This document shows positions 20,982-61,263 of a DNA stretch of 64,000 nucleotides, piece after piece. The notes under the pieces were generated by a model that had not been told where the DNA came from, did no database searches, and saw nothing but the letters and a program-made list of their open reading frames with translations. How positions within the stretch are numbered: position 1 is the first letter of the stretch; every line of letters starts with the position of its first letter. Position numbers and translations under genes: made by a program. Source of the stretch: an uncultured Parafilimonas sp. (lineage in GTDB: Bacteria; Bacteroidota; Bacteroidia; Chitinophagales; Chitinophagaceae); the NCBI GenBank assembly GCA_903882935.1, contig CAIRZB010000042.1:1-64000 (forward strand), written 5' to 3'.

Positions 20982-21542
20982 TTGAAACTATTTATAAAAT
21001 ACATGGTGAGCATCCGTTGCAAAATGATTGTGAAGGCCGAGCTGGAGAAACTTGGCTTGCAATTTACCGCCGTTGATTTGGGTGAAGCAAACATTACGGG
21101 GCCATTAACCACGGAACAATGGCAGTTGCTTAAAACAAGGCTGTTACAATCGGGTTTGGAACTGATGGATGACAAAAAAGCCATGCTGATTGAAAAGATA
21201 AAAAACGTGATTGTAGAAATGGTACACTATTCGGATGAACTGCCCATCGTAAAAAATTCAGAATACATAAGCGATAAACTTGGCCATGACTACACCTACC
21301 TGGCAAACCTATTTTCAGAAGCTACCGGCACCACCATTGAACATTTTATAATAGCTAACAAAATAGAAAAAGTAAAGGAATTACTGCTGTACGACGAGCT
21401 TTCGCTTACCGAAATCTCGTACAAACTTAATTACAGTAGCGTAGCACATTTATCCACTCAATTTAAAAAGGCCACGGGCTTAACACCCACCTTTTTTAAA
21501 CAACTGAAAAACAAAAAACGTATCAACCTTGAGAATGTGTGA
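20982..21542 (+). CDS. Short AraC-family regulator with ferredoxin-fold-like N-terminus (copy 1)
   Basis: A 186-residue protein. TTG at 20982 is the first possible start after an in-frame TAA at 20967; the first ATG (21003) would remove the conserved KLFIKY strand. Residues 1-80 look like a beta-alpha-beta-beta-alpha-beta unit with one Cys in MVSIRCKM. Residues 85-180 are an AraC DNA-binding domain with two helix-turn-helix parts (GTTIEHFIIANKIEKVKELL and LTEISYKLNYSSVAHLSTQF). It aligns without gaps to the gene at 21875, so the two arose by tandem duplication. Effector and targets are unknown; the repeated promoter element nearby is the best candidate target. Confidence 0.85.
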   Translation: MKLFIKYMVSIRCKMIVKAELEKLGLQFTAVDLGEANITGPLTTEQWQLLKTRLLQSGLELMDDKKAMLIEKIKNVIVEMVHYSDELPIVKNSEYISDKLGHDYTYLANLFSEATGTTIEHFIIANKIEKVKELLLYDELSLTEISYKLNYSSVAHLSTQFKKATGLTPTFFKQLKNKKRINLENV

Positions 21543-21605
21543 ATAATGTAAACTTTGCCGGTTGTTGTGTAACAACCGAACGCTTAATCAATACCACCTT
21601 TGCAC
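21538..21605 (+). promoter_or_regulatory. Regulon promoter element, copy A
   Basis: TGTGAAT at 21538 overlaps the stop codon of AraC copy 1. TGTAA follows at +9, TGTGTAACAAC at +28 and CACCTTTGCAC with TTTG at +61. The last block fits a -7 box and the +28 block covers the -33 region, as for an activator site. It should drive AraC copy 2 with a leader of about 265 bases. Confidence 0.75.
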
Positions 21606-21874: not shown

Positions 21875-22435
21875 TTGAAAATCTACATTAAATACATGGT
21901 AAGCTTACGGTGCAAAATGATTGTAAAATCAGCACTGGAAAACCTAGGTATTGCGTATGGCACCATTGATTTAGGTGTTGTGGAGGTGAAAAGACCGGTT
22001 ACCGAAGAAGAACGAACCAAATTGCATGATGCCCTGATAATATCGGGCTTACAGCTACTGGATAACAAAAAAGCGGTATTGGTCGAAAAAATTAAAACCA
22101 TCGTTATTGAAATGATCCATTATGACGAAGAATTGCCCAAAATAAAAAACTCTGATTACATCAGCCAAAAGCTTGAACACAACTATACCTATTTGGCCAA
22201 CCTATTTTCCGAAGCCACCGGAACTACGATTGAGCACTTTATAATAAAACATAAAATTGAAAAAGTAAAAGAACTATTGCTGTATGATGAGCTTACGTTA
22301 ACCCAAATTTCTTACAGGCTCAAGTATAGCAGTGTGGCACATTTATCAAATCAATTTAAAAAAGAAACCGGCCTAACCCCTACTTTTTTTAAAAAGCTGC
22401 AGGACAAAAGGCGCAATAACCTAGAAAATGTGTGA
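21875..22435 (+). CDS. Short AraC-family regulator (copy 2, paralogue)
   Basis: A 186-residue paralogue of the gene at 20982, same length, gapless alignment, and the same TTG start choice. The conserved N-terminal block reads YIKYMVSLRCKMIVK with a single Cys; residues 85-186 are the AraC helix-turn-helix domain (LTQISYRLKYSSVAHLSNQF). Both copies end in NLENV, and in both the stop codon is overlapped by a copy of the regulon promoter element, so the duplicated unit included that element. Copy 2 is preceded by element A and followed by element B, which suggests autoregulation or cross-regulation. Confidence 0.85.
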   Translation: MKIYIKYMVSLRCKMIVKSALENLGIAYGTIDLGVVEVKRPVTEEERTKLHDALIISGLQLLDNKKAVLVEKIKTIVIEMIHYDEELPKIKNSDYISQKLEHNYTYLANLFSEATGTTIEHFIIKHKIEKVKELLLYDELTLTQISYRLKYSSVAHLSNQFKKETGLTPTFFKKLQDKRRNNLENV

Positions 22436-22498
22436 ATGATGTAACAATAACCGAAAATTCTGTAACAACGGAAACACTTAAGTGCGTGATCTTTGTAC
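22431..22498 (+). promoter_or_regulatory. Regulon promoter element, copy B
   Basis: TGTGAATGATGTAAC at 22431, overlapping the stop of AraC copy 2; TCTGTAACAAC at +28; CTTTGTACA with TTTG at +61. Spacing equals copies A, C, D and E. GTAACAA occurs twice, 21 bases apart (two helical turns), as a direct repeat. Confidence 0.75.
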
Positions 22499-23367: not shown

Positions 23368-23876
23368 CGCTTCTGTTTTCAGCACTACCATTTTTCACAT
23401 TATTACTTACCAAAAATCAGTAAGCAAAAAACATACTAAAAAACCTATGGGCTATTTATCGCCCATAGGCCATTACCCAACCAAGCAACAATGTGTGAAT
23501 GATGCAATTATTTTAAATAATTGTATAACAGCCAAAAGCCTTTGACTACGCACCTTTACAAGATGTTTGCACAACTACCATTTAAGCTTAATACAATATT
23601 CAGCAGCCACAGCAATAACTACGAAACCGAGGAGGCAGTGCTGCAGGTTCAGTTAATTTTTGCATCAAATTCGCACGCCCAATATTCCAACGGCAATAGT
23701 GCAAAACCAGCAACGATGGATGTTATTCCTTACATGCCAGCAAGCAACGAAAGGTTCTACAGTATTATAGCAGCTTTTTAAATATAATCGTGTATTTGGT
23801 ATACAATGCGCTAAAAAGTAATGTTTTCAATAATCGCGAAACAATATACGCATAAAACAACAAAAAAAATTATTGT
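23368..23876 (+). other. Intergenic region with hairpin, element C and a possible short ORF
   Basis: A perfect 9-base hairpin (CCTATGGGC / GCCCATAGG, 23443-23468) has no T tract on this strand but has TTTTTTAG after it on the minus strand. Element C follows at 23494. A 72-codon frame begins at ATG 23563, right at the expected transcription start, so it would need leaderless translation; it has no recognisable domain. The remainder to 23876 is probably the leader of the lipoprotein gene. Confidence 0.45.
23494..23561 (+). promoter_or_regulatory. Regulon promoter element, copy C
   Basis: TGTGAATGATGCAA at 23494, TGTATAACAGC at +28, CACCTTTACA with TTTA at +61. Spacing is identical to the other copies. 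Likely target: the lipoprotein gene at 23877, with a leader of about 310 bases. Confidence 0.7.
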
Positions 23877-24958: not shown

Positions 24959-25026
24959 TGTGAATAATGTAATTTGTTCATATAGTTGTGTAACAACCAT
25001 ACCACAAATGCAACGCACCTTTACAT
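24959..25026 (+). promoter_or_regulatory. Regulon promoter element, copy D
   Basis: TGTGAATAATGTAA at 24959, TGTGTAACAAC at +28, CACCTTTACA with TTTA at +61. Likely targets are the small membrane proteins at 25355 and 25544. Confidence 0.75.
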
Positions 25027-31169: not shown

Positions 31170-31526
31170 GTCCATAGTGAGGGAGCCGGTCCATAGTCGA
31201 TGGTCCATGGTCCATAGGGAGAGAGCCAGTCCATGGTCGATGGTCCATAGTCCATAGGAAAACGAGCACGAGGGGGAGGAGAGCCAGGCCAAGGGAAAAC
31301 GAGCACGAGAGAAGTGGGGAAGTGAATCGTCGGTAACTCGAAAAAATAAACTAATTGATATTGTTCTTTTCATAGGCTGTTAAATGCAAGCTATGAACTT
31401 GAAGACTTGAACTGTAAAAGAAAAAAATATCGTTCTTACTACGGGCCATGTACAATGGACTATGAACGAAGCAAAACAAAAACATATCGTTCTTTCTATG
31501 GACTATTGACCATGGACTATGGACTA
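31170..31526. repeat. CCATGGAC-type palindromic repeats between araB and araD
   Basis: Two blocks (31170-31258 and 31446-31526) consist of GTCCATAGTCCATGG-like words; the first runs mainly in one orientation and the second in the other. The words contain self-complementary CCATGG. They fill most of the 375-base gap between araB and araD and end only 11 bases before the araD start. The same family recurs at 35870-37050. Confidence 0.85.
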
Positions 31527-31536
31527 AACGAAACCC

Positions 31537-32235
31537 ATGAGCAAATACGACGCAATACAACAGGCAGCTTACGATGCAAATATGCAGTTGCCTAAATTAG
31601 GGCTGGTATTATTTACGTTTGGTAATGTTAGCGCGGTTGACCGTACCGAAGGTGTTTTTGCCATTAAGCCAAGTGGTGTGCCTTACGAGGAACTTACCCC
31701 CGGCAAAATGGTGATTGTAGATTTTGATGGCAAGGTGGTGGAAGGCGGTCTGCGGCCATCGTCCGATACAAAAACGCATGCCGTGCTGTACAAACACTGG
31801 GAGCATATCGGCGGCATTGTGCATACACACTCCACTTACGCCACCGCATGGGCACAGGCACAGCGCGATATACCCATTTTTGGCACCACCCATGCCGACC
31901 ATTTAACGGTGGATGTGCCTTGCGCGCCACCGATGGATGATATTATGATACAGGGCGATTACGAACATGAAACGGGCTTCCAGATAATGCATTGCTTTGA
32001 AGAAAGGGGCCTTAGTTACCAGGAGGTGGAAATGATACTGGTAGGCAACCATGCGCCTTTTACCTGGGGCAAAACACCTGCCAAAGCTGTGTACAACAGT
32101 GCGGTGCTGGAGGCGGTGGCCCAAATGGCGCAGCTAACGGAGAGTATTAACCCCAAAGCGCCACGCCTCCAGGATTCGCTTATCAAAAAACATTTTGAAC
32201 GTAAGCACGGCCCCAACAGTTATTACGGCCAGTAA
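31537..32235 (+). CDS. araD: L-ribulose-5-phosphate 4-epimerase
   Basis: A 232-residue class II aldolase/epimerase that converts L-ribulose-5-phosphate to D-xylulose-5-phosphate. Zn ligands appear as His96 and His98 in VHTHSTYATAWAQ and a further His near residue 170 in VGNHAPFTWG. FGNVSAVDR near the N-terminus binds the substrate, and GTTHADHL and YYGQ at the end are typical of AraD. Length is normal. Confidence 0.95.
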   Translation: MSKYDAIQQAAYDANMQLPKLGLVLFTFGNVSAVDRTEGVFAIKPSGVPYEELTPGKMVIVDFDGKVVEGGLRPSSDTKTHAVLYKHWEHIGGIVHTHSTYATAWAQAQRDIPIFGTTHADHLTVDVPCAPPMDDIMIQGDYEHETGFQIMHCFEERGLSYQEVEMILVGNHAPFTWGKTPAKAVYNSAVLEAVAQMAQLTESINPKAPRLQDSLIKKHFERKHGPNSYYGQ

Positions 32236-32295
32236 ACTATTTAACCCTGCCAAAGGGTATAACACAACACATTAGCCATAAAGCGTAACAACATT

Positions 32296-33666
32296 ATGTA
32301 CCGTAGTATTGCCTGCTTTTTTACCGCATTTTTCATGTGCGCTGCTTTTGTGCAGGCGCAGCCAAACAGCAGCATTGCCGCCACGCCCCCCATGGGCTGG
32401 AACAGCTATAACTGCTACGGCTCCGCCGTGCATGAGGATGAGGTGAAGGCCAATGCCGATTATGTGGCGCAGCACCTTATGCAGTATGGCTGGCAGTACA
32501 TTGTGGTGGACTTTTTATGGTCGTACGATAACCCGCCGGGCAGCACCATAGGCAACCCTTTTCAGCGCAACCTGGAGGATGGATCCTTTGTGCCCTGGTT
32601 AACTATGGATGCGTATGGCCGCCTGTTACCGCAGCCCAATAAATTCCCCTCGGCGTTTGGGGGCAAGGGCTTTAAACCGCTGGGCGATTATATACACAGC
32701 CTGGGCCTTAAGTTTGGCATACATGTAATGCGCGGCATACCCCGCCAGGCGGTATGGGCAAAAACACCAGTGCTTGGTACCAAAGGCATTACGGCAGATA
32801 TGATTGCCGATACCTCTTCCACCTGCGCGTGGATGAACCACATGAACGGCCTCAATATGCTAAAACCCGGTGCGCAGGAATACCTTAACTCAATACTGGC
32901 GCTGTACAGCGATTGGGGTGTTGATTTTATTAAGGTGGATGATATTTCGCGCGAGTACAGCACGCTGGAAATTGAGGGCTACAAAAAAGCCATTGACAAT
33001 ACGGGCAAAAATATTGTGCTGAGCCTTTCGCCGGGTGCAACACCCTTGGTAAAAGCACAGCACTTAACGCAATACGCCAATATGTGGCGCATGGCTGATG
33101 ATTTTTGGGATAACTGGAAAGAAATTTTGCAGATGATGAAGTTTGCAAAGCAATGGCAGGGTATTGGCGGCCCCGGCCACTGGCCTGATTGTGATATGCT
33201 CCAGGCGGGCAAGCTTAGCAAACGCGGCCCCGTGGGCCCGGAGCGGTACAGCCGTTTTACGGTGGATGAACTGTACACGCACATTACTTTTTGGAGCCTG
33301 TACCGCAGCCCGCTCATGCTGGGCGGCAACCTGCCCGAAAACAGGCCCATTGAAGAAAAACTTTTTACCAACCCCGAAGTAATAGCCGTTAACCAGCAGG
33401 GCAGCAGCCCCAGGGAACTGTATAAAAACGACAACAGTTGGGTATGGATATCCAATGCGCCTGGTGGTGGTTGGTACATTGGCCTGTTTAATATTGGTGA
33501 GCAGGCGCATAGTGTTAACATAGATGCCGCACAGCTTGGCATAAAAACAAAATTTACGGTACGCGATATTTGGAAGCAGGCCGATTTGGGCCAGTTTAAA
33601 AAAACGTTCGGGCAAAATATTCCCCCGCATGGTTGTATGCTACTGAAAGTGGCGGCGTTGCGGTAA
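32296..33666 (+). CDS. Exported GH27-type glycosidase (alpha-galactosidase or beta-L-arabinopyranosidase)
   Basis: A 456-residue glycoside hydrolase with a signal peptide (residues 1-21, ending AQA). The GH27/GH36 clan opening TPPMGWNSYNCYG is clear. The probable nucleophile Asp lies in FIKVDDISREY and the acid/base Asp in WRMADDFWDNW. The KVDD variant differs from the KYDNC of classical alpha-galactosidases, and GH27 also includes beta-L-arabinopyranosidases, which would suit a gene lying between araD and araA. The C-terminal beta domain (WVWISNAPGGGWYIGLFN) is present. Substrate is therefore inferred from context. Confidence 0.85.
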   Translation: MYRSIACFFTAFFMCAAFVQAQPNSSIAATPPMGWNSYNCYGSAVHEDEVKANADYVAQHLMQYGWQYIVVDFLWSYDNPPGSTIGNPFQRNLEDGSFVPWLTMDAYGRLLPQPNKFPSAFGGKGFKPLGDYIHSLGLKFGIHVMRGIPRQAVWAKTPVLGTKGITADMIADTSSTCAWMNHMNGLNMLKPGAQEYLNSILALYSDWGVDFIKVDDISREYSTLEIEGYKKAIDNTGKNIVLSLSPGATPLVKAQHLTQYANMWRMADDFWDNWKEILQMMKFAKQWQGIGGPGHWPDCDMLQAGKLSKRGPVGPERYSRFTVDELYTHITFWSLYRSPLMLGGNLPENRPIEEKLFTNPEVIAVNQQGSSPRELYKNDNSWVWISNAPGGGWYIGLFNIGEQAHSVNIDAAQLGIKTKFTVRDIWKQADLGQFKKTFGQNIPPHGCMLLKVAALR

Positions 33667-33670
33667 GGAG

Positions 33671-33815
33671 GATGGGGACGATGATTTGGGACGGGGATTT
33701 GGGTGGATGGATGGGATTAATAGATTGAGGGACGATGATTTGGGACGGAGATTTGGGTGGATAGTAAGGATTAGGAGGACGGAGATTTGGGTGGATAGTA
33801 AGGATTAGGAAGATG
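33671..33815 (+). repeat. Imperfect tandem repeat of GGGTGGAT-containing units
   Basis: Units of about 33 bases with the core GGACGGAGATTTGGGTGGAT followed by AGTAAGGATTAGG occur at least twice nearly identically, with two degenerate units before them. The repeat is strongly purine-skewed. Confidence 0.75.
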
Positions 33816-34197
33816 GATTGTGGGATGATAAATAATGATATTGTTGGCTGAATAATATGATTGTATTGCCTGGGCACGATGCTGAAATTGCTGCATAAAA
33901 GCCACATAGTGGCGATATGTTAGTAGGATGAGCGCGCGAAAGCAAATAACGTTGTTAGCCCCGGAGGGGCGGCATGTTGGCGGATGGCGCGGCAATTGAA
34001 AAGATGATACGGCAGCGGCCTGCAATTAAAACGGCCATTTGGTAGAAAGGGTATTTGTATTGATAGCTGAACAGCGCTTCCACCGTACAAGGGTGCGACG
34101 CAACGGCAGCTCAATGGAGAATCCTAACGCTGGCCTCACAAAAAAAACGGAAAATGTAAACAGCCCCTACAAGCGGAGCGGGGCAAAAAAATAAACT
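33816..34197 (+). other. Intergenic stretch before araA with dispersed-repeat sequence
   Basis: No gene seen. A small hairpin GCCCCGGAGGGGC (near 33958-33972) is followed by GGCATGTTGG, and CCACCGTACAAGGGTGCGAC lies near 34079-34100; both look like fragments of dispersed Bacteroidota repeats. The araA promoter is not obvious. Confidence 0.4.
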
Positions 34198-35727
34198 ATG
34201 AGCAATATACTTAACGCCCCTGTTGGGGAAGGTGGCAAAATTGGCAGCGCTGTTGTTTGGTTTGTTACGGGCAGCCAGCACCTTTATGGCGATGAAACTT
34301 TACGGCAGGTGGCGGAACACTCGCAAACAATTGCAAAGGCATTGAACGAGGCCAGCCAGATACCGGTGCAGGTGGTGTTTAAACCCACGGTAAAAAGCCC
34401 GGAAGAAATATACAATGTGTGTGCCGATGCCAACAACGATAGAAACGTAATAGGCATTATTACCTGGATGCACACTTTTTCGCCAGCAAAAATGTGGATT
34501 AACGGTCTTAAAATATTACAAAAGCCTTTGCTGCACCTGCATACCCAGTTTAACAGGGATATACCCTGGGCCGATATTGATATGGACTTTATGAACCTTA
34601 ACCAAAGCGCCCACGGCGACCGTGAGTTTGGTTTTATGGTTAGCCGCCTGCGCCGCAACCGCAAGGTGGTGGTGGGCCACTGGCAGGATGAAGCCGTATT
34701 ACAAACCATTGGCGGCTGGGCCCGTGTGGCTGCTGGCTGGCACGATTGGCAGGGTGCAAGGTTTGTGCGCTTTGGCGACAACATGCGCTTTGTAGCCGTT
34801 ACCGATGGCGATAAAGTAGAGGCGGAGTATAAATTTGGTTTCTCGGTAAACACCCACGGCATTGGCGACCTGGTAAAAGTAATTAACGCCATTAGCGATG
34901 CGGAAGTGGATGCCCTTATAAAAGTGTACGAAGAAAGCTATACCCTGGCCGCTGGCCTGGTAAAGGATGGCGCACAACGCCAAAGCCTGAAAGATGCTGC
35001 GAGGATTGAACTTGGCCTGAAAGCATTTTTGCAGGATGGTAACTACAAAGGCTTTAGCGATACGTTTGAAGACCTGCACGGCATGAAGCAACTGCCCGGT
35101 ATTGCGGCGCAGCGCTTAATGGCGGCTGGTTACGGCTTTGCCGGTGAAGGCGACTGGAAAACGGCGGCGCTGGTGCGGGCCATGAAGGTTATGGGTGCTG
35201 GCCTTACAGGCGGCAACTCGTTTATGGAAGACTATACTTATCACCTGGACCCTGCTAATCCGCTGGTGCTGGGCAGCCACATGCTGGAGATTTGCGAATC
35301 AATAGCTGCTGGTAAGCCAAGCTGCGAAATTCACCCGCTGGGCATTGGTGGTAAGGAAGACCCCGTTCGCCTGGTATTTAACGTGGCCGGTGGCCCTGCG
35401 TTGAATGCATCGCTGGTGGATATGGGCAACCGTTTTCGCCTGCTGGTGAACGAAGTGGAGGCCGTTGCCCCCGAGCACGACCTGCCCAAACTGCCCGTAG
35501 CCCGCGTACTGTGGAAGCCTTACCCCGACTTTAAAACAGGCCTTGCTGCCTGGATACTGGCCGGTGGCGCACACCATACCGGTTACAGCCAAAACCTTAC
35601 CGCTGAAAACCTGGAAGACTTTGCCGATATTGCCAATATTGAATTTGTTTTAATAGGCAAAAACACCAATCTTTATCAGCTAAAGAACGAGCTTAGGTGG
35701 AATGAGGTATATTACAGGGGGCAGTAG
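34198..35727 (+). CDS. araA: L-arabinose isomerase
   Basis: A 509-residue isomerase converting L-arabinose to L-ribulose in the cytosol. Recognisable segments are [16 protein letters not shown] at the N-terminus, [51 protein letters not shown] and [13 protein letters not shown], and HTGYSQNL near the C-terminus. These build the Mn site (two Glu and two His). Length fits the family. The usual araBAD order is altered to araB-araD-GH27-araA with repeats in between. Confidence 0.97.
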
Positions 35728-35736
35728 GGGTTTTTA

Positions 35737-35882
35737 GTCCATGGGAAGAAAAGCGGAGGTTGACATAGTGTTTTAGGCATTTTAGTTAAAAAATATGAAA
35801 GTATTTTTAGTTAAAACAAGTAGTTCTTTTTAATAAAATAGAGCCTCTTAACAAAGGTCTATAGTCCATTAATCATGGGCTA
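35737..35882 (+). repeat. Direct repeat flanking the four-helix-bundle gene, left copy
   Basis: About 145 bases beginning GTCCATGGGAAGAAAAGCGG, containing AAGTAGTTCTTTTTAATAAA and ending CCATTAATCATGGGCT. It matches the copy at 36440-36584 along its length with substitutions and short indels. It lies immediately after araA. Confidence 0.8.
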
Positions 35883-36031
35883 TCCGATGACGGGCTGTTC
35901 TTGCTATGGACTATCGACCATGGACAATGGACCTGCTCTCTCACCATGGACCATATGAAACACGGGCTGTTCCTGCTATGGACTATGGACCATGGACAAT
36001 GGACCTGCTCTCTCGCCATGGACTATGGACT
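35871..36031. repeat. CCATGGAC palindromic repeat block upstream of the four-helix-bundle gene
   Basis: Repeated words such as CTATGGACCATGGACAATGG and ACGGGCTGTTC (twice). The block belongs to the same family as the arrays at 31170 and 36854. Confidence 0.8.
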
Positions 36032-36059
36032 AACAAAGAGGCTACCAAAAATAAACCCT

Positions 36060-36413
36060 ATGCCTTTTAAATTTGAGGAGTTAAAAGTGTGGCATAAATC
36101 GTTGGAATTAACCGATGAAGTTGACTTACTGGCAAAAACGTTTCCTGTTGAGGAGCGGTATAGCCTGGCCTCTCAAATTAAAAGGGCTGCTGATTCAGTG
36201 GTGTTAAATATTGCTGAAGGCAGCACTGGGCAAACAACCACTGAGTTTAAAAGATTTTTGGATATAGCCTTGCGCTCGGCGGTGGAAGTGGTGGCTTGCC
36301 TTTTTATAGCGCGGTCAAGAAAATATGTTGAAGAAAGCATCTTTAAAAAGCTATACAACGAATACGAAGTGTTATGTAAAATGCTGACGAAGCTTCGCGA
36401 TTCGATGGGGTAA
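36060..36413 (+). CDS. Four helix bundle protein (23S rRNA intervening-sequence family)
   Basis: A 117-residue protein starting at the ATG at 36060; the frame open back to 35901 reads through the repeats and is not credible. The family signature is clear: FEELKVWHKSLELTDEV, ERYSLASQIKRAADSVVLNIAEGS and FKRFLDIALRSAVEVVACLFIARS. Homologues were first described inside rRNA intervening sequences and form pentameric four-helix bundles; many Bacteroidota have them amid repeats. Here it lies between two 145-base direct repeats and CCATGGAC arrays. A nucleic-acid-binding role in the spread or upkeep of these repeats is plausible but unproven. Confidence 0.9.
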   Translation: MPFKFEELKVWHKSLELTDEVDLLAKTFPVEERYSLASQIKRAADSVVLNIAEGSTGQTTTEFKRFLDIALRSAVEVVACLFIARSRKYVEESIFKKLYNEYEVLCKMLTKLRDSMG

Positions 36414-36417
36414 AGAA

Positions 36418-36446
36418 AGTCCATGGTCCATAGTCCATGGTCCATG
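36418..36446. repeat. Short CCATGGAC repeat block after the four-helix-bundle gene
   Basis: GTCCATGGTCCATAGTCCATGG, in the orientation opposite to the array upstream of the gene, runs into the right direct repeat. Confidence 0.75.
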
Positions 36447-36584
36447 GGGAGGAAAGCGGAGATTGACATGTTTTTTAGATAATTAAGTTGAAAAACCTAA
36501 AGGTTTTTAGTTAAAGCAAGTAGTTCTTTTTAATAAATTAAAGCCTCTTAAAAAAGGTCTAAAGCCCATTAACTATGGGCTGTT
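36440..36584 (+). repeat. Direct repeat flanking the four-helix-bundle gene, right copy
   Basis: Begins GTCCATGGGGAGGAAAGCGG and includes AAGCAAGTAGTTCTTTTTAA and CCCATTAACTATGGGCT, about 703 bases downstream of the left copy. Confidence 0.8.
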
Positions 36585-36853
36585 TTTTCCATGGACTATG
36601 GACCATGGGCTATGGACTAAAAGACGTAACGGGCTGCTCTTACTATGGGCTATCGACCATGGACCATGGACTTTTTCATAGGACTAACCATGAATTAATT
36701 GTAAAAACAACAATATATTTTTATAGCTAACGATTATTTTATTTCTTTACCGCAGGGTAAGGGAATTGTTAAAAGAGGGTAGAGTGTAAAAGCCTTATAA
36801 TAAATTTTAGCAGGTTTTTTACGATAGACTTTTCTTGTCACGGGCATTTCTTT
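36585..36853. other. Gap with further CCATGGAC words
   Basis: CCATGGAC-type blocks at about 36590-36620 and 36650-36683 are followed by AT-rich sequence with no ORF. No promoter for the downstream symporter gene is obvious here. Confidence 0.5.
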
Positions 36854-37047
36854 CCATGGACTATCGACCATGGACTATGGACTAAAAGAAACATCGGGCT
36901 GTTCTTGCCATGGACTATCGACCATGGACTATGGACTAAAAGAAACATCGGGCTGTTCTTGCCATGGACTATCGACCATGGACTATGGACCAAAAGAAAC
37001 ATCGGGCTGTTCTTGCCATGGACTATCGACCATGGACTATGGACTTC
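36854..37047 (+). repeat. Tandem array of a 54-base unit
   Basis: Units start at 36854, 36908, 36962 and 37016 (the last is partial). Each begins CCATGGACTATCGACCATGG, continues ACTATGGACTAAAAGAAACA and ends CGGGCTGTTCTTG. The three full units differ by a single T/C. As 54 is a multiple of three, false ORFs run through on both strands. There are no variable spacers. Confidence 0.95.
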
Positions 37048-37108
37048 CCTCACGGTCTAAGAAGAAACAAAAACTGAATCAATAACCATAACCAACGATT
37101 GACTATTT

Positions 37109-40440: not shown

Positions 40441-40516
40441 ACCCGCGGAAATTTGAAAATTTGAGGATTTGAAAATAAAACAACCAGCACCACAATGAAC
40501 CGCAACTAACGAACTA

Positions 40517-40771
40517 AGCCAGCCCACAAGCCGACCTAAAACGCAAGTTTAGGGCCGGATAAAACGGCGTAACTATCAGCAGCCCGAATACAAGCGTGTT
40601 GCTACCAACCTATCACGCAGGTGGCTACAAAGTAAATAAGTGCGCTGTTACACATGGGGAGGGGCTGGCCTGGCAAAGCGGTGGAGCTTCGCGTTTGCCT
40701 TGAATTTTCTTTGTTACTTTCTTTGTTTCAAGACAAAGAAAGTAAATATAAGGCGAGCGCAACCGCAAGTT
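40517..40771 (+). repeat. 255-base direct repeat, copy 1
   Basis: Begins AGCCAGCCCACAAGCCGACC and includes AAACGCAAGTTTAGGGCC, GAGGGGCTGGCCTGGCAAAG and a perfect 13-base hairpin (TTACTTTCTTTGT / ACAAAGAAAGTAA, 40714-40745). Copy 2 is at 40946. The hairpin part belongs to a repeat widespread in Bacteroidota genomes. Confidence 0.9.
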
Positions 40772-40819
40772 GTAACTGTACTTGCATTGAGTGTAGTGGT
40801 GTTGGAGTTTAATTAGCAT
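40769..40819 (+). pseudogene. Remnant of a second GH51-like gene (3' tail only)
   Basis: Read in frame, the sequence gives TVLALSVVVLEFN and a stop. It matches the end of the intact GH51 gene (TVNLPALSVVVLEIK, stop), with several silent differences in the shared codons. Both are followed by ATTTGAAAATTTGA. Only the last dozen codons remain, so a paralogue or duplicate was deleted, probably between repeats. Confidence 0.6.
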
Positions 40820-40945
40820 ACGGGCAATTTGAAAATTTGAAAATGGACCCGGATTTTCCTGATTTTTTGATTGGGCTGTTATAAGAAGATATAAGTTTCA
40901 ATTTTAAAAATTAGGCCATTTAACAATGAAATGCCGCAACAACAA

Positions 40946-41201
40946 AGCCAGCCCACAAGCTGACCTAAAACGCAAGTTTAGGGCCGGATAAAACGGCGTA
41001 ACTATCGGCAGCCTGAACACAAACATGTTGATACCAACGTATCAAGCAAGCGGCTACAAAGTAAACAAGTGCGCTGTTACATGTGGGGAGGGGCTGGCCC
41101 GGCAAAGCGGCGGAGCTTCGCGTTTGCCTTGAATTTTCTTTGTTACTTTCTTTGTTTCAAGACAAAGAAAGTAAATATAAGGCGAGCGTAACCGAAAGCT
41201 G
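40946..41201 (+). repeat. 255-base direct repeat, copy 2
   Basis: Second copy of the 40517 repeat, 429 bases downstream, with scattered substitutions mostly in its central part and the same 13-base hairpin (41143-41174). Confidence 0.9.
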
Positions 41202-58601: not shown

Positions 58602-58994
58602 ATGAAGCTTAGTAAGTTCCGAGAAAAATCAAATGAATATACGGCTAAAGCTAGTGAGTTAACAAGGCAATTATGCTTAGCTGGAATTGCTATTATTTGG
58701 TTGTTTAAAAAGTCTGATACTAACGAACCACTATTAGAAAAATATCTTCTGATTCCACTAATTTTTTTATCAATTGCGTTGTTGGTAGACTTGTCGCAAT
58801 ATATAATTGCCGGCAATATTTGGATTACTTTTTTCCGGAAGAAGGAAAAAGAATTTATAGACTCTGACATTGACCCAGATGTTAAAGCACCAGACAATCT
58901 AAACAAAGTGATTTACGTTTGCTACTATGTCAAAATTATACTAATGGCATTTTCTTATTTTTTTATCATCGGGTATTTAATTGAAAAAATTTGA
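58602..58994 (+). CDS. Small three-helix membrane protein linked to the Z1 helicase
   Basis: A 130-residue protein with hydrophobic segments at about 24-41, 48-80 and 104-127 and a charged cytosolic-looking loop (FFRKKEKEFIDSDIDPDVKAP). No family is recognised. It starts six bases after the helicase stop and shares its AT-rich composition, so the two are probably acquired and expressed together. A membrane-disrupting effector in an abortive-infection-like pair is one reading; a structural partner is another. Confidence 0.7.
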   Translation: MKLSKFREKSNEYTAKASELTRQLCLAGIAIIWLFKKSDTNEPLLEKYLLIPLIFLSIALLVDLSQYIIAGNIWITFFRKKEKEFIDSDIDPDVKAPDNLNKVIYVCYYVKIILMAFSYFFIIGYLIEKI

Positions 58995-59427
58995 TATAGT
59001 TTCCCTTTGTTTTCTTAAATTTATATTAGGTAAAATATCCCATCTCTTCGCAATATTTTTTTAGGACAGAACCCATCTGCCCCTTTCTTTAGTCTTTTTT
59101 TAGGATTTTCAGTAAAGCCCCCGGAGGGGCTTGACTATTTTAGCATTTTTACAGTTGAAATTTGCCTGCCCCCCAGCCCGGACAAGCAAAAGCAACTGGC
59201 CTTTCCGCCGTTAAATCGTTTTGCACACTCTTCTTTAATAAAGCAGTTTATTAGGCTTTGATATTTTTATTTTTTGGCACCTATAGGTCTTTACTTTTCC
59301 GCTACCCCACCCCAACATGTGAATATTGTAACTTATATACGCAATTGTATAACACCTGCACCTGTAAAAACAACCAGTTTTACAAGGCGTTTATTACACA
59401 ATAACCGCAACAAAAAATATATTAACA
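58995..59427 (+). other. Right border of the island and leader of the HAD gene
   Basis: Contains the hairpin AAGCCCC / GGGGCTT (59115-59133 region) with weak T tracts, then element E at 59318. Composition returns to the level of the other genes after about 59150. Confidence 0.5.
59318..59385 (+). promoter_or_regulatory. Regulon promoter element, copy E (distant)
   Basis: TGTGAATATTGTAAC at 59318, TGTATAACACC at +28 and TTTACAAG with TTTA at +61, exactly as in copies A-D more than 34 kb away. Target: the HAD gene at 59428, leader about 40 bases. Confidence 0.75.
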
Positions 59428-60051
59428 ATGGGCAAACAAATGCCAGTAACCACCCTGTTTTTAGACGTAGGCGGCGTATTGCTGAACAATGGGTGGGAAC
59501 AAAAGTTCCGAAGGTTGGCAGCCGACACGTTTAATTACGACTTTGACGAAATGGAGGCCCGGCACCACATAATTTTCGAAACCCATGAAGAAGGCAAAGT
59601 TACTGTTGAGCAATATTTTAAAAGGGTATTGTTTTATAAACAGCGCGATTTTACGTTGGCACAAGTGCGTGATTTTATGTTTGCACAGTCAGCACCTTAC
59701 CCAAAGATGATTGAGTATATAAAGGCGTTGAAAGAACAACATAACCTAAAAATAGCGGTGGTAAACAATGAGGCAAAGGCATTGAATGAATACAGGATAC
59801 AACAGTTTGGCCTGGATACATTTGTGGACTTTTATATTTCCTCCTGCTATGTGCATGTTCGCAAGCCCGACGCTGAAATTTTTACATTAGCGCTTAACCT
59901 GTCACATGCAAAGGCTGAGCAGGTAATTTTTATTGACAATACACAAATGTTTGTAGAGGTGGCCACCGAAATGGGCATAAAGAGCATACTGCATACTGAT
60001 TATTTGTCTACATCCAATGCATTGGCGGCAATAGGGCTGCACGTTGAATAA
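59428..60051 (+). CDS. HAD-family hydrolase, motif I DxG variant
   Basis: A 207-residue HAD protein. Motif I is TLFLDVGGVLLNNG (about residues 9-22): the nucleophile Asp is present but the second Asp of DxD is Gly, as in dehalogenase-like and some YihX-type members. Motif II is the VVNNEA region, the Lys is in VHVRKPDAEIF, and motif IV is VIFIDNTQMF. Phosphatase activity is possible but uncertain. It is the clearest single-gene target of the regulon promoter element, so it may belong to the stress locus functionally. Confidence 0.85.
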   Translation: MGKQMPVTTLFLDVGGVLLNNGWEQKFRRLAADTFNYDFDEMEARHHIIFETHEEGKVTVEQYFKRVLFYKQRDFTLAQVRDFMFAQSAPYPKMIEYIKALKEQHNLKIAVVNNEAKALNEYRIQQFGLDTFVDFYISSCYVHVRKPDAEIFTLALNLSHAKAEQVIFIDNTQMFVEVATEMGIKSILHTDYLSTSNALAAIGLHVE

Positions 60052-60174: not shown

Positions 60175-61263
60175 ATGGATATACAACAACTTATTGCTAC
60201 TGTTAAGGCAATGGTGGCTGACAACAAAGGGCTGCTGGCCATGGATGAAAGCTTTACAACCTGCAATAAACGGTTTGCCGCAGCAGGCATACCGCAAACG
60301 GCGGAGGCCCGCCGGGCTTACCGGGAAATGATTATAACCGCACCGGGGTTAAGCGATAGTGTAAGCGGACTGATACTGTATGACGAAACCATACGCCAGC
60401 AAACAAAAAACGGCCTTTCGTTTGTGCAGGCCATCACCGATGCGGGCATGGTACCCGGCATTAAGGTTGACACAGGCGCAATAGCGCTGGCGAACCACCC
60501 TTTGGAGAAAATAACCGAGGGGTTAGACGGTTTGCGCACCCGCCTTGCCGAATACGCCCAAATGGGTGCAAGGTTTGCGAAATGGCGCGCGGTGATTACA
60601 ATCGGCAATAATATCCCCACATATAGCTGTATCGAGGCCAATGCCCAGGCATTGGCCCGTTATGGCGCCCTATGCCAAGAAGCTGGCTTGGTGCCCATTA
60701 TTGAACCGGAGGTACTGATGGACGGAGCACATACCCTGCAAAGGTGCAGCGAGGTAACAGAGCAAGTGTTGCGCGCCGTTTTTAATGCGCTGTACGCCCA
60801 ACGGGTGGTGCTGGAAGGGATGGTGCTGAAACCAAACATGGTTTTGCCGGGCTTGGGCTGCAGTGACCCAGTAACAGCGGATGAAGTGGCAGACGCAACG
60901 GTGGCCTGCCTGCGGAGGGCTGTACCTGCGGCAGTGCCTGCTATCGCCTTTTTGTCTGGCGGGCAAAGTGGCGAGCTGGCCTCGGCCCGTTTAAATGCCA
61001 TTAACCTTCGGCACAGGTTGCAAGCACCCTGGGCACTCACATTTTCATTCGCACGCGCCATACAGCAGCCAGCGTTGGAAATTTGGAAAGGGCAGGAAGC
61101 AAATGTGGCAGCAGCACAACGCGCCATGTACCACCGGGCTTGGAGTAACCGGGCTGCCAGGCTGGGCCAATACAGCCCGGCAATGGAAGTGGTTAACCGC
61201 GATAAAGATATTATTGCGGAAGAAGCAGCATTTAAAACAGCCAATGAAGTAGAAATTATTTAA
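60175..61263 (+). CDS. Class I fructose-bisphosphate aldolase
   Basis: A 362-residue Schiff-base aldolase that cleaves fructose-1,6-bisphosphate to two triose phosphates. KGLLAMDESFTTCNKRFAAAGI at the N-terminus, PGIKVDTGAIAL, IIEPEVLMDG and VLEGMVLKPNMVLPG (catalytic Lys in LKPNM) are the class I features; AIAFLSGGQSGELASARLNAIN binds phosphate. It ends ANEVEII instead of the Tyr of animal enzymes. Class I enzymes are sporadic in bacteria. It is under a palindromic site of its own. Confidence 0.95.
   Translation: MDIQQLIATVKAMVADNKGLLAMDESFTTCNKRFAAAGIPQTAEARRAYREMIITAPGLSDSVSGLILYDETIRQQTKNGLSFVQAITDAGMVPGIKVDTGAIALANHPLEKITEGLDGLRTRLAEYAQMGARFAKWRAVITIGNNIPTYSCIEANAQALARYGALCQEAGLVPIIEPEVLMDGAHTLQRCSEVTEQVLRAVFNALYAQRVVLEGMVLKPNMVLPGLGCSDPVTADEVADATVACLRRAVPAAVPAIAFLSGGQSGELASARLNAINLRHRLQAPWALTFSFARAIQQPALEIWKGQEANVAAAQRAMYHRAWSNRAARLGQYSPAMEVVNRDKDIIAEEAAFKTANEVEII

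Follow-up and report, generated by a model that had tools for sequence, protein, structure and literature searches.

The window analysed here, a stretch of 64,000 nucleotides from an uncultured Parafilimonas sp., contains five copies of a three-block element, four of which (A to D) are gathered between 21 and 25 kb; the fifth, copy E, lies 34.36 kb beyond copy D, upstream of a gene coding for a HAD hydrolase. This arrangement raises the question of whether copy E is a regulated site in its own right and, if so, which protein acts on it. An earlier note on this DNA had counted copy E as a fifth member of the family and had described it as distant from the other copies, and repeat detection in the window indeed places it in one family with copies A to D. 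Its coordinates, 59318-59384 on the forward strand, had been given correctly to within a base or two, and the three blocks (TGTGAATATTGTAA from 59318, TGTATAACA at 59346-59354 and TTT at 59379-59381) stand at +0, +28 and +61, exactly as in the other four copies. The gene that follows (59428..60051, forward strand), presumed to be the first of the transcript, encodes as proposed a HAD hydrolase, a 207-aa protein of the HAD-IA type matching PF13419 (E 3.8e-15), PF00702 and TIGR01509 above cut-off. Directly upstream of copy E are located a Z1-domain gene (PF10593, 56367-58595) and a small open frame (58602-58994).

Copies A to D lie on the same strand. Copy A (21538..21604) follows a first regulator gene (20982..21542, loop motif MVSIRC) and precedes a second one (21875..22435, MVSLRC), both on the forward strand; copy B (22431..22497) follows the latter and precedes genes coding for a 128-aa protein (22699) and a DUF2061 protein (23110). 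The stop codons of the two regulator genes coincide with bases 3-5 of copies A and B, and the encoded HMA-like/AraC proteins are the candidate binders of the element. Copy C (23494..23560) precedes genes for an sll1863-like lipoprotein (23877) and a cupin (24373), and copy D (24959..25025) a gene for a membrane protein of the lmo0937 family (25280). The designation of this region as a stress locus is borne out for the lmo0937 family, which is matched above cut-off, and less so for the sll1863-like stress protein, found only below it. Repeats of other kinds are also present in the window: a CATGGACTATGGACC-rich repeat in many copies, partly organised as 54-bp tandem units (31170-37066), G-rich short direct repeats within that stretch (33675-33807), and a 261-nt direct repeat in two copies 92% identical (40512-41201).

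For searches, the first two blocks were written as TGTGAATNNTGNAA-N14-TGTRTAACA, the third block not being part of the pattern. In the window, five matches with up to three mismatches were obtained; 100 shuffles that preserved dinucleotide composition averaged 0.02, and no single one gave five. The 5.54-Mb genome contains 14 such matches (seven exact, four with one mismatch and three with three), and the reversed control pattern gave one; base composition predicts 4e-5 exact two-block matches in a genome of that size, and chance is a negligible source of the copy E match. Since the pattern was derived from the five window copies, the fair evidence consists of the six new sites and of the unsearched third block. 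Eleven strong sites (at most one mismatch) were found on seven contigs, each of the six new ones on a separate other contig, and all eleven carry the third block at the same offset (A at +58, TTT at +61 to +63), which provides the strongest single argument that the blocks probably form one working unit. With a matrix score of 53.3, copy E ranks fourth among these eleven sites (range 38.6-60.0; matrix built from them and 86 others). The new sites precede genes coding for a third AraC paralog followed by a PAS protein (L001), a small 143-aa protein, a rubrerythrin-like lipoprotein (PF02915), a lipoprotein without Pfam match, an EB_dh-domain protein (contig C6) and a second cupin. The C6 site and copy E have 33 of 37 bases in common, including 13 of 14 spacer bases, and their flanks are dissimilar.

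The sequence surrounding copy E is unrelated to that around the other copies, as had been claimed. Over the 66 bp of the core, ungapped identity to copies A to D is 53-62%; it falls to 18-27% across the 60 bp before the core and to 28-40% across the 60 bp after it, which argues that copy E occurs independently and is no fragment that strayed from the 21-25 kb locus. A simple local duplication, which the earlier note had already argued against, is further disfavoured by the six strong sites on six other contigs and by the presence of the element in many Bacteroidota genomes. The note had gone on to conclude that copy E shows the element to be a true trans-regulated site; this is by far the best reading, but a single distant copy falls short of proving trans-regulation, and we consider it very likely that copy E is acted on in trans.

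The anatomy of the element points to the type of protein involved. Compared column by column, the two halves are most similar at a direct shift of 21 bp (0.49, against 0.39 for the next direct shift and 0.27 for the best inverted one), and the half-sites, AATnnTGTAAC and AATTGTRTAAC, are direct repeats. A period of 21 bp places them two helical turns apart, as would fit a dimer of the AraC/XylS type; XylS binds Pm as two monomers on two 15-bp direct half-sites upstream of the core promoter, according to the accessible part of PMC5481539. The third block resembles the -7 box of Bacteroidota sigma-A promoters, TAnnTTTG at -12 to -5 in the available extract of PMC9723704. If it is taken as the TTTG of this box, the distal half-site of copy E (TGTGAATATTGTAAC, 59318..59332) would occupy -69 to -55 and the proximal one (ACGCAATTGTATAACA, 59339..59354), which repeats it 21 bp further on, -48 to -33; the predicted -7 box would be CAGTTTTA (59375..59382), an imperfect version of the motif, its position being assigned after the same extract. 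All three features are on the forward strand. Transcription is predicted to start near 59387, which leaves about 41 nt to the HAD start codon at 59428. The element thus reads as an AraC/XylS-type activator site with half-sites predicted at -69 to -33, followed by a Bacteroidota -7 box. The direct half-sites abut the -35/-33 region at a fixed distance from the predicted core promoter, as in class II AraC activator promoters, and such a promoter would depend on its AraC activator. Other layouts were considered. An inverted repeat or CRP-like palindrome was rejected on the normalised score, which is at most 0.27 for inverted layouts and reaches 0.49 at the direct shift of 21; only the unnormalised score, resting on low-information columns, had favoured an inverted layout, at 22. 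Sigma-54 and ECF promoters were rejected by eye, unscored, against the motifs given in the extract of PMC9723704.

The element recurs well beyond this genome. An exact two-block scan of genome contigs returned at least 119 stretches, and 80 loci with 86 sites were examined. Among the matches listed, the record titles of these loci name Bacteroidota groups, except one labelled Chlorobiales, and A..TTT[GA] was found at +61 in 66 sites and at +60 in 12 (78/86 together) and almost nowhere else. Element-bearing genomes include those of Flavobacterium fluvii DSM 19978 (L147) and of Mucilaginibacter (L086/L100). The genomes of relatives gave 54 sites with at most two mismatches, our own 11 included, against two for the reversed control; in 28 examined rows, which count one site twice and lack two sites of the same loci, TTT stands at +61 in 20, at +60 in three and at neither position in five. 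In an even draw across the phylum, 13 of 392 genomes, our own included, have a site with at most one mismatch. What has been observed directly is the presence of the sites, the constancy of their geometry and their recurrence in Bacteroidota.

Genes located after the sites encode proteins of the families Ice_binding (9), OmpA (6), Big_5 (4), Cupin_2 (4), DUF6600 (3), MlaE (2), YceI (2), Ferritin (2), YtxH (2), AraC/HTH_18 (2), glycine zippers and others, 25 of 56 families being listed. This tally covers 76 of 79 picked genes, one having been set aside for masked letters (L101) and two for implausible short frames (L132 and L136); no gene was picked at seven of the 86 sites, and as the picks follow a length-and-distance rule, single assignments may err. 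The mix looks like envelope and stress protection. We found no published description of such a regulon, which is weak evidence of absence, as the queries needed several terms together and even broad combinations came back empty.

The likely binder of the element is an AraC protein whose N-terminal domain is HMA-like. The two window proteins, of the 186-aa type, carry a C-terminal AraC domain (PF12833, E 2.1e-15 and 1.1e-15), and they are proposed as regulators on account of the overlap of their stop codons with copies A and B and of linkage and co-occurrence elsewhere. Of 12 regulator genes examined in other genomes, five (L077, L094, L095, L108 and L139) show this stop-codon overlap as well. 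Among 50 regulator loci, one of them our own, 19 have their best element on the regulator's strand between -5 and +60 relative to its stop codon, counting only scores above the best of 50 shuffled loci (18.4), and in ten of these it sits at exactly -2, as copies A and B do. Six further loci have the element within 300 bp upstream of the regulator gene; in the remaining 25, the best match lies elsewhere or is no better than chance. Diverged forms of the element occur at some regulator loci (TGTGATATATGTAAC; TGTAAATnTTaCAA), and fit operators that changed along with their regulators.

Linkage and co-occurrence with the regulator family were likewise observed. Of 43 sites in the 58 relatives, 23 have a regulator gene within 6 kb, where chance predicts 0.21; the count takes 49 of 61 regulator rows and all 54 sites, which cluster and are not independent. 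Across the 392 genomes, a site with at most one mismatch was found in 10 of the 67 with a regulator at E 1e-25 (the 57 without one count against the link) and in 3 of the 325 without (Fisher 2e-6; 9/66 against 3/325 and 1e-5 when our own genome is removed), P values that are too small because the genomes are related to each other. Another case against the link is a relative (G025) that has two element-like sites with the third block shifted by one and lacks the regulator at E 1e-10. The three stress-type paralogs of the genome cannot be told apart as binders.

It is conceivable, though in our judgment unlikely, that the site is real and Bacteroidota-wide but bound by another factor, such as a response regulator of a PAS kinase or a CRP-like protein, the AraC genes being merely frequent targets. 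AraC genes are indeed found downstream of the element (L001, and HTH_18 in 2 of the 76 downstream genes), PAS/histidine-kinase genes follow several stress-type AraC genes, and the AraC protein is missing at E 1e-25 from 3 of the 13 site-bearing genomes. However, direct repeats of 21 bp suit AraC dimers and not a CRP palindrome, and the element, in diverged forms too, also stands at the stop codon of CxxC-type AraC genes, for which the tested downstream genes encode HMA proteins and not kinases.

Whether copy E itself is in use is a separate matter. The earlier note had suggested looking for the element at orthologous HAD genes, and this check did not bear out its reading: the element was found at none of 34 related HAD genes with sufficient upstream sequence (530 bp), a weak check in that only four of them (L050, L052, L226 and L227) are closer by bit score to the copy E HAD than to a second HAD of the same genome (contig C46), and only L226 (57% identity) clearly so, true orthologs being hardly tested. 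The check comprised 35 loci, one of which is the genome's own second copy; of 47 matching genomes, 17 gave no locus, and only G001 was checked among these (L049). The check is further weakened by the two genus-mate genomes being 63% and 69% complete. Downstream of the HAD gene, 123 bp past its stop codon, lies a gene for a class I fructose-bisphosphate aldolase (60175..61263, forward strand; PF00274, E 4.7e-129), which is possibly co-transcribed with it. A search of the 58 relatives at E 1e-60 gave no match to this aldolase, and its occurrence in the phylum is patchy, with 22 of 392 genomes carrying it, our own included. The element was found upstream of none of 22 related aldolase loci with upstream sequence, a 23rd locus being without such sequence. 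Two loci picked by the element alone contain an aldolase 68-69% identical to that of copy E, located upstream of their elements.

The absence of the element from the related HAD and aldolase genes examined suggests that copy E could be young or weak. Together with the imperfect -7 box, its absence from the 34 related HAD genes gives some room to the reading that copy E matches the element and yet is unused, a relic or chance survivor before the HAD gene. This we regard as improbable, given a full three-block match on the right strand that scores fourth of eleven, a predicted start 41 nt before the ATG and a negligible probability of a chance match. A regulated copy E would make of the HAD and aldolase genes what looks like a lineage-specific recruit of the regulon. 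Finally, a dispersed or duplicated repeat devoid of regulatory function is a most improbable account of the five copies, even though copies A to D lie within 3.5 kb and an AraC gene and the element are duplicated there in tandem, and is refuted as far as sequence allows: the flanks of copy E are unrelated to those of A to D, spacers vary and blocks and spacing are constant, and the eleven sites are spread over seven contigs and recur in other genomes at a fixed spacing to the -7 box.

The explanation that we favour, and hold with good though not full confidence, is that copy E is a regulated operator-promoter under an HMA-like/AraC regulator. It would serve as operator and core promoter of the HAD gene and perhaps of the aldolase gene as well. 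A 186-aa AraC-family protein of the kind encoded at the 21-kb locus, with its HMA-like N-terminus, would bind the two direct half-sites as a dimer and recruit RNA polymerase to the -7 box, the proximal half-site occupying the -33 region. The protein would thus act by activation rather than repression, with stress as the presumed trigger. The same protein or its paralogs may act on the other ten strong sites, and the targets would include the regulator genes themselves, cupins, rubrerythrin, lipoproteins and the lmo0937 family.

The fold of the regulator bears on its origin. AlphaFold2 predicts a beta-alpha-beta-beta-alpha-beta arrangement over residues 2-61, with a last strand of only two residues and the AraC domain after it; block pLDDT is 75-91 over residues 1-90, and the predicted fold is of the HMA type. 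Foldseek returned AraC domains first (E 8e-6) and Atx1 weakly (E 0.07-0.16, TMt 0.64-0.68), with non-HMA chains at an equal level, and the Pfam HMA family (PF00403) is not among the 19 families matching 13 regulator members at E up to 1. The CxxC metal pair is absent from the window regulators, which have SIRC and SLRC instead, and we do not class these putative domains as metal-binding HMA domains.

Nearly all regulators contain the loop motif MV(C/S)xRC. In a tree of 64 of them, rooted for drawing only, CxxC is found in 24 and SxxC in 40; the SxxC proteins form one side of a single branch (support 96/80), inside a group of 49 rows (98/99) that additionally includes nine CIRC proteins. Genes following MVCxRC regulators (x other than I) encode HMA domains in nine of ten cases tested, namely six E1-E2 ATPases and three HMA-MauE proteins, the ten having been chosen by eye from 14 loci; the unscanned L212, L220, L223 and L225, as well as L224 (MACESC), do not look copper-related. 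After SxxC and CIRC regulators, none of ten genes tested, chosen by eye from 35 loci, encodes an HMA domain; these code for PAS proteins/histidine kinases, Usp, fatty acid desaturases, a cupin just below cut-off, an ice-binding protein and one protein without match. Regulators of the MVSNRC kind and near relatives (L001, L197, L202, L264 and L266) precede genes for PAS proteins or histidine kinases; this pairing is seen repeatedly and may point to a partner in signalling. On contig C37 of our own genome, a MVYDRC HMA-AraC gene (L074, 2099-2659, reverse strand) is split across two frames, by a real break or an assembly error; it is followed by a diverged element with three mismatches and then, by eye, by a copper-type P-ATPase gene.

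Copper sensors with a CxxC pair, often located before copper-type transport genes, seem to be the ancestors of the regulator family, and we infer a direction from copper to stress. One branch would have retained its layout of DNA binding as well as the element at its gene's end, shifted to stress genes and afterwards, in a single event, exchanged CxxC for SxxC and so lost the first metal cysteine; such a branch would respond to a different signal, perhaps the oxidation of the cysteine that is left. Scattered genes would subsequently have gained the 66-bp operator-promoter (ice-binding-like, rubrerythrin, ferritin, cupin, OmpA-like and HAD genes), copy E being a recent gain. For this history as a whole, that of a widespread Bacteroidota stress regulon under HMA-fold AraC regulators derived from copper sensors, we have a slight preference only.

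To our knowledge, the coordination of stress genes in Bacteroidota is poorly described. What is new here is the proposal of a regulator whose HMA-like domain has lost a cysteine, and of a regulon extending across the phylum. With an operator-promoter and a named candidate regulator, targets can be listed from sequence alone in element-bearing genomes of the phylum, and the system offers a direct test of a metal-sensor fold turned to another signal. Copy E would bring an apparent sugar-phosphate gene pair, the HAD hydrolase and the class I aldolase, into the regulon in one lineage.

Several known systems can be compared with this one. In enterobacteria, scattered stress genes are placed under one small AraC-type activator, SoxS, MarA or Rob, which use single monomer sites of about 20 bp; in contrast, the system described here has two half-sites and other target genes. 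Copper chaperones and domains of the HMA family (Atx1; 4a47, 2xmv) resemble the regulator in its predicted fold and in the (C/S)xxC of the first loop, whereas the regulator domain is fused to an AraC domain, has a serine for the first cysteine in the stress type and is unmatched by Pfam HMA. XylS at Pm shares the layout of two direct half-sites upstream of a core promoter (accessible part of PMC5481539), here with a period of 21 bp at a predicted -69 to -33, but the half-site sequence differs, a Bacteroidota -7 box replaces the -10/-35 elements, and the N-terminus of the candidate regulator has an HMA-like fold in place of the XylS effector domain. Finally, the third block fits AnnTTTG at the -7 position of Bacteroidota sigma-A promoters, as given in the extract of PMC9723704, while the -33 region appears to be taken by the proximal half-site.
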